Positions 22,304-25,158 of a stretch of 35,940 bases of DNA are shown in pieces. The position numbers and the translations under genes were made by a program. Source of the DNA: an uncultured Pseudomonadota bacterium (GTDB taxonomy: Bacteria > Myxococcota_A > Bradymonadia > Bradymonadales > Bradymonadaceae); assembly GCA_950059285.1 (NCBI GenBank), contig CATLTV010000033.1, forward strand, positions 1 to 35,940. Reading direction: 5' to 3'. How positions within the stretch are numbered: the first letter of the stretch is position 1; every line of letters starts with the position of its first letter. The notes under the pieces were generated by a model. That model ran no database searches. It had not been told where the DNA came from and worked only from the letters and a program-made list of their open reading frames with translations.

Positions 22304-24955
22304 GTGTTCTGTTCTCACTCACCACGCATAACATGGGTTGTGCTCACTGGCCTCGTGGCGCTCAACCTCGCAGCTTGTCAACCCGAGGACACAACCTCCA
22401 CTGACAGCACCAATACACCAGCAGCAACCACAGATGTTGTGGAACAGCAGCCATCCACTGGCGATGAGACACTCACCAATCAACAGGCAGTCACCGATCA
22501 AAACGGCCCAAACTACATGGTGCTCGGCGGTCCTTATGTCGACCTTGTGGGAGAAGATGGTGAACCCGACAAGCTCGCCGGTCGACTGGTCAACGGTGGC
22601 ACTGGCGTGACCACAGGTTCTGCAAACGAGAACGTATGGCTCCTTCTTGGCCCCACGGGTAAGCTCACGTACCTTGATGAAGATGGTCGCCCACTTCGCG
22701 GCGAGCTCCTGAACGTGCTTGAAAACAATGGCGTGCTCTTCTCCTCTCTTGGCGAGCGCAATATTCCTAACATCGGCGTGCAGAGCACATGGCTGATTGG
22801 CGGCGAGGATGGTCGCGTCCAGCTTGTTAACCGAGATGGTGAGCCCGAGCTAGAGCTCAAGAACCAACTCTTTGAAGATCAAGCAGAAACCACACCAGCA
22901 ACACTTATCGCAGGTGGTTACAGCAAGGCCGCAGAACAGTGGCTTGTGGGCACAAACAAGGGCGTCCTCACAGGACTCAACACCACGCTTGATCCCATCA
23001 CCAACGAGAACGCAACCTTCTCAGGCACAGCCATTGCGGGCATCGTGGGGAACCCCGACGAAAACGCCGCGTCAAACATGCGTTGGGCTGTCGCAGGCGG
23101 TGATAAAGTCACCTATTTCCCTGGCAACACACCTGTCGTGTTTGCTGGCGAGACATTCTCTTCTCTGAATGAAGCCAATGGAACACTGGTCGCGGGTACT
23201 GAGTCGGGCCGGGTCGCGATCTGGGACTTTGATGCTCTTGATGACACCCCGACCTGGATTGATGCCCTTGAGGGGGAAGCAGTACAGGCTGCATTCTGGA
23301 ATGGCGCAGACTGGGTTATTCTTGGAGAGCAAGGTAGCGCACGTCTGATTTCTGATGGCTCCGCACAGGGTCAGATCGCACACCTTGGTGATGGCACAGC
23401 GCTTGTATCTGCACGCTGGGCAAACGAGCGCTGGCTCTTTGCCACGGCCAACGGCCTTATCTTTGAAACAGACGCGTCCTTGAACCTGCTCTTCAACTAC
23501 AATCAACCCCTTGATGGCGCCACCTTGCGTGATAGCGCACCAGGAAAGGATCTTGTGGTCGTCGCAGGTGACGAAGGAAAATACGCTATCCTCACACCTC
23601 GTGGTGAGCGCATGGGTGATGTGCACTCTGTTGCAGGTTCATCCATGCTCTACGCCGCAGAGTGGAGCGGTTCAAACTTCATCGTCGCAGGAGATCAGGG
23701 CATCGCCCAGCTCCTTGATGAGAACGGCGACGCTATCGATGCTCCCATCACCCTGCTTGAGGGCAACACTATCCGCACGGCATCCTGGAGCGGAAACGTC
23801 TGGCTCATTGCAGGTGATGGTGGAAAAACACAACGCGTACGACCAGATGGCGAGGTCATTGGCACGCAAGACCTTGAAGGATTTGCTCAAATTAACGCGC
23901 TCAAATGGAGTGGTTCTGAGTGGCTTGCTGTTGGGTTCTCGGACGAAAACGAAGCCCTCGTACAGCGTATCAAGAGTGATGGTACACCCATTGGCAATCT
24001 CCTGACCTTCACCACCATTGAGTCCTTCAACGCCATTGAATGGAGCGGGCGAGAGTGGATCGTGGGTGGCAGTGGCGGTTTCGTACAGATCATCAGCAAC
24101 GCAGGCGAGCCTCGTACTCAGCCAGGTCCGCAGCCAAGAAACGTGTTGCTGGGTGCAGACATTCACAGCATCGATTTCCATGACAACAAATACCTTGTCG
24201 CAGGTGAGAATGGACTCACACTCCTGATCACACAGGATCTCCTCACCAGCGTTCCTCCAGTCGCCGTTGTTGGCCTTGAGACCATTTACGAAGCGCGCTG
24301 GACACGTGCTCGTGGCTATGGACAGGGTGAATGTCTGACCAACGATCTGTGTTATGCAGGCGAATGTATTGGCAACAGTATTCAAACAGGGTTCTGCTGT
24401 GACAGGGCATGTGACAGAGCCTGTGAGTCCTGTCTTGCATCCGACACGGGCGGACAGGATGGTATCTGTGCGCCTATCCCTGCAGGAGAGATGCCTGCAA
24501 AAGATGGATGTACTGCAGAAGATCCCTCAACCTGTGGCCAGACTGGATTGTGTGATGGCGCAGGCGAATGTGCCCTTCACGGCACAGATGTCAGCTGTAG
24601 TGACGCATCTTGTGAAGCAGGCGCAGTCACACCAGAGGGTCTGTGCGACGGCGCAGGTACATGCAACACCCCTGAAGCGGTGATGTGTTCACCTTACCTC
24701 ACCTGTGATGGAGCCGATTGTGGCACAACCTGCTCCAGCGATGATGAGTGCTCCGAAGGTTATGAGTGTGGCGAAGAAGGCACCTGTGTGACTGAAATGG
24801 AAGAGATGGAGGAAATGCCCGAACCCGAAACACCACCTGAAGAAGGTTGCTGTGCGGTCGTTGCTCCAAAATCCAGTCAGCCAAAATCACTCCTGTTCGC
24901 AGCACTCGGACTTCTTGGTGCTGTGCTCCTGCGTCGCAGACGTCGTCAGGGCTAG
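22304..24955 (+). CDS. Beta-propeller-like lipoprotein with MYXO-CTERM-like tail
   Basis: This 883-residue protein starts at GTG with AGGGAG upstream. It opens with a lipobox (N-L-A-A-C, Cys25) and a Thr/Ser/Pro-rich linker. Residues about 70-670 contain some 13 repeats of the form W.G..WL.AGD.G..Q....DG, suggesting one or two beta-propellers. Residues about 680-830 are cysteine-rich with CCDRACDRACESC and CDGAGEC units. The end (about 845-883) is Gly-Cys-Cys, a hydrophobic helix and RRRRR, as in MYXO-CTERM sorting signals cut by myxosortase. It is probably surface-exposed. The stop TAG lies at the edge of a MITE-like element. Confidence 0.88.
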   Translation: MFCSHSPRITWVVLTGLVALNLAACQPEDTTSTDSTNTPAATTDVVEQQPSTGDETLTNQQAVTDQNGPNYMVLGGPYVDLVGEDGEPDKLAGRLVNGGTGVTTGSANENVWLLLGPTGKLTYLDEDGRPLRGELLNVLENNGVLFSSLGERNIPNIGVQSTWLIGGEDGRVQLVNRDGEPELELKNQLFEDQAETTPATLIAGGYSKAAEQWLVGTNKGVLTGLNTTLDPITNENATFSGTAIAGIVGNPDENAASNMRWAVAGGDKVTYFPGNTPVVFAGETFSSLNEANGTLVAGTESGRVAIWDFDALDDTPTWIDALEGEAVQAAFWNGADWVILGEQGSARLISDGSAQGQIAHLGDGTALVSARWANERWLFATANGLIFETDASLNLLFNYNQPLDGATLRDSAPGKDLVVVAGDEGKYAILTPRGERMGDVHSVAGSSMLYAAEWSGSNFIVAGDQGIAQLLDENGDAIDAPITLLEGNTIRTASWSGNVWLIAGDGGKTQRVRPDGEVIGTQDLEGFAQINALKWSGSEWLAVGFSDENEALVQRIKSDGTPIGNLLTFTTIESFNAIEWSGREWIVGGSGGFVQIISNAGEPRTQPGPQPRNVLLGADIHSIDFHDNKYLVAGENGLTLLITQDLLTSVPPVAVVGLETIYEARWTRARGYGQGECLTNDLCYAGECIGNSIQTGFCCDRACDRACESCLASDTGGQDGICAPIPAGEMPAKDGCTAEDPSTCGQTGLCDGAGECALHGTDVSCSDASCEAGAVTPEGLCDGAGTCNTPEAVMCSPYLTCDGADCGTTCSSDDECSEGYECGEEGTCVTEMEEMEEMPEPETPPEEGCCAVVAPKSSQPKSLLFAALGLLGAVLLRRRRRQG

Positions 24956-25094
24956 GTTCTGTTGACGTAGGCGGACCGAGCAGAGCGACGGCACGGGAGA
25001 GAGGCAATGAAGGGCGATCGGGATCGCCTGAAGATGCTTCTCCTCTTTTCTTCGGGGCAAGCTCCGCGACGGGAGCTTAGGTCAACAGAACCTA
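24953..25094. mobile_element. MITE-like 142-bp element with inverted ends and TA duplication
   Basis: GGTTCTGTTGAC (24955-24966) and GTCAACAGAACC (25081-25092) are perfect 12-bp inverted ends, each flanked outside by TA, so the element looks inserted at a TA target with duplication. The inside holds further hairpins (GGCGATC/GATCGCC near 25014-25029 and AAGCTCC/GGAGCTT near 25059-25079) and no gene. TA targeting is typical of IS630/Tc1-mariner and some IS5-group elements; the parent is unknown. The left TA+G forms the stop codon of the upstream gene. Confidence 0.6.
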
Positions 25095-25122: not shown

Positions 25123-25158
25123 AAGTGAAAGGAGGACGCATGCGTCCTCCTTTCACTT
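25123..25158. terminator. 36-bp palindromic hairpin between convergent genes
   Basis: Perfect 18-bp arms meet at GCATGC (centre between 25140 and 25141). The core is GAAAGGAGGACG. It lies between the propeller gene (plus) and the AstE-like gene (minus). It is the shortest member of the palindrome family in this window and lacks the GGGCGG core. Confidence 0.7.

Follow-up and report, generated by a model that had tools for sequence, protein, structure and literature searches.

How can a mobile element land within the stop codon of a gene and leave the encoded protein as it was, and is such a placement an accident of one locus or a property of the element? This question is raised by a 35,940-nucleotide stretch of DNA (hereafter the window) from an uncultured bacterium of the Bradymonadaceae, in which a short element with inverted ends begins exactly where a long gene stops. 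A first-pass annotation of the window had described the insertion of a MITE-like element into a TA of this stop codon, with a stop being kept, a description that is borne out by the sequence, by the end of the ORF, and by the repeat family to which the element belongs. Here, we report the structure of the element, its relatives within and beyond the genome, and the distribution of the family with respect to stop codons.

The element and its host gene

The features of the locus are listed in Table 1. The 12-bp ends are perfectly inverted and have TA on both sides, as had been seen at first reading, and a repeat search that includes the TAs delimits 20-nt arms that are 90% complementary. Exact matches to the 12-mer within the window are limited to the two ends of the element. 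By chance, about 0.6 exact 12-bp inverted pairs within 300 bp would be expected in 36 kb, and hence such a pair is not rare alone; it is the repeat family in the genome, not the inverted pair by itself, that indicates that the element is real. The element has a strong predicted fold (-72.2 kcal/mol, z = -6.6), a result that any palindromic MITE would give.

The host gene stops at a TAG (24953-24955) whose G is already the first base of the element. When the element and one TA are removed, the reconstructed empty site reads GGC-TAA-ACC, which agrees with the earlier proposal that a TAA had been converted to TAG by the insertion. The C-terminus of the host protein matches the MYXO-CTERM sorting tail TIGR03901 (25.5 bits, cut-off 20, residues 847-881 of 883), and since this tail ends two residues before the stop, the protein is complete. 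Two further statements of the first-pass annotation did not hold. The designation of the protein as a propeller lipoprotein has no support from Pfam, in which a search with the host protein gave no match, and the feature that it does carry is the MYXO-CTERM tail. The 3' region of the gene was said to have been replaced; nothing is visibly replaced, and the element lies between the host stop and a separate inverted repeat (25123-25158) that was probably the hairpin at the 3' ends of the converging genes before the insertion. Apart from the change from TAA to TAG and an added structured stretch toward the 3' end of the mRNA, the insertion most likely has almost no effect on the host.

Table 1. 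Features of the element and its surroundings (positions in the window)
Feature	Position	Strand	Remark	Basis
Host gene, 883 aa	22304-24955	+	Intact; MYXO-CTERM C-terminal sorting tail	ORF list, Pfam, TIGR03901
Left TA flank	24953-24954		With G24955, forms the TAG stop of the upstream gene	Sequence, ORF end
MITE proper, 138 bp	24955-25092			Sequence, alignments with own-genome copies
Left terminal inverted repeat, 12 bp	24955-24966	+	GGTTCTGTTGAC, perfect	Sequence
Right terminal inverted repeat, 12 bp	25081-25092	-	GTCAACAGAACC, perfect	Sequence
Right TA flank	25093-25094		Presumed target dinucleotide, second copy	
18-bp perfect inverted repeat	25123-25158		28 bp past the right TA; not part of the MITE	Repeat search

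A MITE family in the genome

The genome (6.65 Mb in 441 contigs) contains 43 matches to the element at E<=0.001, with near-complete copies down to E=1e-39, so that the search for other copies of the 142-bp sequence suggested by the first-pass annotation was successful. Twelve copies are near-complete (the window copy and 11 others), and about a dozen more are cut by contig ends. The usual form of the family is 155 bp long, or 159 in all with the two flanking dinucleotides; according to the alignments, the window copy lacks 12 bp (AGGAATGAGGGG or equivalent) and another 5 bp (TTCTC). Over ungapped positions, 10 of the 11 other near-complete copies are 96.5-98.6% identical to the window copy and the remaining one (L012) is 89% identical, and three copies (L003, L004, and L005) are mutually 99-100% identical. 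Such near identity points to a fairly recent spread of the family, which also includes old, diverged copies (L024, L028, and L029). The members have the attributes expected of MITEs, including short length (138 bp here, 155 bp typically) without a transposase ORF, terminal inverted repeats, dispersed copies with differing flanks, and ends shared with an autonomous element.

Several copies have been remodeled. In L012 (1501-1643), the interior is a perfect long hairpin in which the left arm has taken on the sequence of the right arm, as would happen in hairpin-templated repair. Mini-forms of 50 bp that are built from the right end only were found at three loci (L026, L030, and L119), and L092 is also among the near-perfect right-end palindromes of approximately 50 bp. 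An inner position differs between L026 and L030 on both arms, and these two therefore arose or were homogenized separately.

None of 57 relatives carries the element, the sole trace being a 28-bp match to an end in one of them (G023); one of these relatives shares only the phylum, and the others share the family, order, or class. The genus is represented by this genome alone, and the comparison thus covers relatives at the family level and above. No match to the element was present in a plasmid collection. Among viral contigs, the 18-bp core had one match, which was taken as chance, since it has no inverted ends and is located in an apparently phage-type coding region.

A second interspersed repeat of approximately 165 bp was observed in the same genome, with ends YA-GAGCGTRATRRAGAAGGA...TCCTTCTTTATTACGCTC-TR and flanks of TA or CA. 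Its copies include positions 1-93 of the window (minus strand), where the left end of the window breaks inside a copy, and L155, L157, L159, L162, L163, L164, and L168. Copies of the second family lie at stops of long ORFs in L006, L075, and L164, and in L002, L006, L030, and L075, members of the two families are inserted into or directly next to each other at a common TA; in L075, the TA at the right end of an insertion sequence (IS) is followed by a 53-bp hairpin of the second family and then by TA.

The probable parent insertion sequence

The ends of the MITE also occur on a longer element, at or close to which 13 contig edges are located (8 left ends and 5 right ends), all 13 with TA, and each copy is seen with one end per contig, the interior being absent from the assembly. 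The left ends at contig ends read TA-GGTTCYGTTGACATAAGCTAAAGG... in all 8 cases. In the right end, the C-terminal 34 residues of a transposase can be read (...RIATRYDKLDLTYLNFLHLACCIIWLR, followed by the stop); they match positions 226-258 of NF033580 (transpos_IS5_3) with E=4.6e-8, a score under the whole-protein cut-off because no more than these 34 residues are assembled. The IS left end shares a 21-bp segment, TAGGTTCTGTTGACATAAGCT, with several MITE copies at their right end; the window copy carries a CTAAGCT variant of it. A query with the 34-residue C-terminus across the class recovered only the two contig ends. Other NF033580 matches in the genome (L093-L095) were considered as the interior of the IS; none of them carries a closely similar version of these ends, and they seem to belong to other IS5 elements. 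Judging from its two assembled ends, the parent is an IS of the IS5 family, within which the IS427 group, whose features include 2-bp repeats (PMC3281130), seems to be the best fit on the basis of the 2-bp TA flanks.

The first-pass annotation had anticipated a full IS with the same ends from either the IS630 or the IS5 group, and had named the lack of any other copy or related IS as the outcome that would speak against its reading. Both a repeat family and an IS with the same ends were found, and the assignment to IS5 (IS427-like, from the NF033580 match of the right end) stood. The assignment to IS630 did not. TA flanks are typical of the IS630/Tc1-mariner superfamily, and mobilization by a transposase of this type, as is thought for the TA-flanked RUP and Correia-type elements, would fit them. 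However, the C-terminus encoded by the IS with these ends is of the IS5 type, and the parallel case in Endozoicomonas is also IS5: there, the same inverted repeat with its TA lies no more than 30 bp past the end of an IS5 transposase (...RIATRFEKKAVNYMGMLALAALMLWLR, then the stop). Judged from the right end of the IS and from this parallel, an IS630 origin is extremely improbable. The repeat family and the IS5-type shared ends, which are observed, together with movement of the MITE by the IS transposase, which would follow from them, are best explained jointly if the element is a non-autonomous MITE, and we hold this to be very probable. It is a new MITE family of a known kind of element, with its parent type identified as IS5.

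Placement at stop codons

Stop-codon placement recurs across the MITE/IS family. At 21 of the 67 MITE and IS edges, an ORF of at least 100 codons ends in a TAG that is formed by the flanking TA and the first G of the element. Twenty of these 21 ORFs were counted as credible genes and one (L186), which belongs to no family, was dropped, so that 20 of 57 TA edges form the TAG stop of a genuine gene, which in most cases is full-length. Pfam domains reach the protein end at most of the stop edges, including thiolase, FtsX, AstA, NADAR, DUF6178, histidine kinases, S66 peptidase, and others. DUF6178 and the thiolase C-domain both end 3 residues before the stop, and FtsX, AstA, NADAR, Metalloenzyme, S66, and two histidine kinases extend to or near the ends of their profiles. 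Truncation within genes was considered as a cause of the ORF ends at these edges and was rejected, since the Pfam domains mostly reach the protein end and an in-frame TAR is impossible inside a gene.

As a null, TA sites that are in stops or intergenic were counted in 400 kb of the same genome, in which 7.1% are stops, or 13.6% in the YTAR context, both values being approximate because the simple ORF caller used misses short genes. Considering 3'-facing edges, 20 of 41 are at a stop, compared with 67 of 415 for YTAR sites that follow genes (p=5e-6); L003, L180, and L076, whose ORFs are open into the element, were not counted as stop cases, and L181 was added. If the distance is limited to 100 bp, the corresponding numbers are 20 of 36 edges and 67 of 244 YTAR sites (p=0.0016). 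Complete copies alone have a modest excess (7/20 at a stop; p=0.013 against 13.6% and p=0.09 against 20%). The two MITE ends are found at stops equally often (left 6/20, right 10/34, p=1), and 4 of the 13 IS edges are also at stops, of genes that have Pfam support. For four complete copies that have a TA at either end, the reconstructed empty site contains a stop, which is TAA in the window, L007, and L011 and TAG in L002.

Mechanism and possible causes of the bias

A simple sequence of events would account for the copy in the window. The IS transposase would move the gene-less MITE by acting on the shared ends. Insertion occurs at YTAR and in most cases leaves a TA at each end. Any TAA or TAG stop preceded by a pyrimidine is such a target. 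Insertion into either stop rebuilds TAG and leaves the protein unchanged, TAG being always regenerated because G is the first letter of the element whichever strand is read. In the window, the insertion hit the TAA of the MYXO-CTERM protein gene. Insertions of this kind are harmless and accumulate, which would explain why about one-third of the edges are located exactly at a stop.

The flanks do not always follow the simplest pattern. Most copies have two TA flanks. CA replaces TA at 6 of 20 left-type MITE edges, the right flank being TA at 30 of 34 right-type edges, and about one in three complete copies combines CA at one end with TA at the other. Copies with such mixed flanks are L005, L006, L012, L028, L029, and L030, of which L005 is otherwise nearly identical to copies with TA. 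Such flanks are not the product of a plain 2-bp TA duplication. Insertion beside another repeat accounts for some of them (L006 and L030), not for L005, L012, L028, and L029.

Tolerance, in which stop codons are a safe landing site, explains much of the bias. It could also be that the transposase, or a host factor used by it, actively targets stop codons or gene ends, and the threefold higher odds relative to the remaining 3' YTAR sites up to 100 bp away (20/36 vs. 67/244), which should be about equally harmless, argue in this direction, as does the occurrence of the same placement at IS edges (4/13, with Pfam-supported genes). On the other hand, the flank logos contain only YTA outside each edge (that is, YTAR) and a weak GC(T) preference, and for elements with the same ends in Endozoicomonas elysicola the excess is only slight (7/57 TA edges, including a nested one, vs. 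5.3%, p=0.03; 6/57, p=0.08). Moreover, the unrelated TA-flanked repeat family of the same genome is also found at stops, which indicates a general cause. Active targeting beyond tolerance is thus rather unlikely. The same tentative standing, on the doubtful side, applies to the wider idea of an IS5-family system whose target choice is biased to stops and whose G-starting ends rebuild the stop, a self-effacing and gene-sparing behavior common to the IS and its MITEs.

A different cause would be selection at gene ends for a functional RNA or a 3' transcript feature, such as a terminator, an RNase III site, or an mRNA stabilizer. The first-pass annotation had suggested that the strongly structured inside could act as an RNA or terminator, and the structure itself is confirmed (z = -6.6); the perfect 52-bp palindromes of the mini-forms and the location of the element after genes would also suit such a role. 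However, the window has no Rfam match at the gathering score, no terminator pattern (GC-rich hairpin and T run) is found inside the element, and left and right edges lie equally often at stops (6/20 vs. 10/34), that is, with no preference for direction. A separate hairpin already follows at 25123-25158. A conserved RNA was rejected on pair counts, since no more than 2 of 51 pairs have changed on both sides, and the term for covariation is unfavorable (+2.13). The suggested role is thus unsupported, and selection for an RNA is very unlikely, tolerance of harmless insertions remaining the preferred explanation for much of the bias.

Significance and comparison with known elements

The family illustrates that a G-starting, TA-targeting element can colonize the stops of ordinary, apparently intact genes while their proteins stay unchanged. 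If the bias reflects real targeting, it would represent a gene-sparing insertion rule that may be used for 3'-end tagging; if it reflects tolerance only, it would be a clean quantitative example of selection shaping the sites at which mobile DNA survives.

A literature search for an IS or MITE that inserts into stop codons found no general description; a single-gene parallel is the Coxiella MITE at the 3' end of enhC (PMC5896051). Well-known MITEs such as RUP (pneumococcus), Correia/NEMIS (Neisseria), ERIC, and QMITE (Coxiella) resemble the present family in their length of 100-200 bp, absence of genes, inverted ends, TA flanks, hairpin-like form, and mostly intergenic sites (PMC2229807, PMC5896051). 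They differ in sequence, the element described here having IS5-linked ends, and recurrent exact placement at stop codons is a feature of the present family that we did not find described for them (PMC2229807, PMC5896051). The IS427 group of the IS5 family (IS1248 and ISPaes1 of Paracoccus; PMC3281130) shares with the parent IS the IS5-type transposase end, inverted repeats of approximately 13-20 bp, and a 2-bp flanking repeat (TA here). Members of this group have a two-ORF frameshift layout of approximately 830-865 bp; of the parent IS, the assembly contains the two ends.

A scan of genome contigs for the ends, from which the window's own records were excluded, returned other genomes with the same ends. 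E. elysicola has 76 end matches. Same-ended elements of 32-265 bp were observed at seven loci (L099, L100, L101, L102, L103, L104, and L107) in Endozoicomonas and Pyrinomonadaceae, which belong to two further, unrelated phyla, and a 136-bp element in a Pyrinomonadaceae MAG (L101:7483-7618), with ends GGTTSTGTTGACATTTCA, is a further sub-type of the same ends. The MITE-like elements of Endozoicomonas and Pyrinomonadaceae differ from ours in the interior, in the stretches compared, and their stop bias is weak in E. elysicola, yet they have the same GGTTCTGTTGACATAAG ends with TA and a similar size of approximately 137-265 bp.
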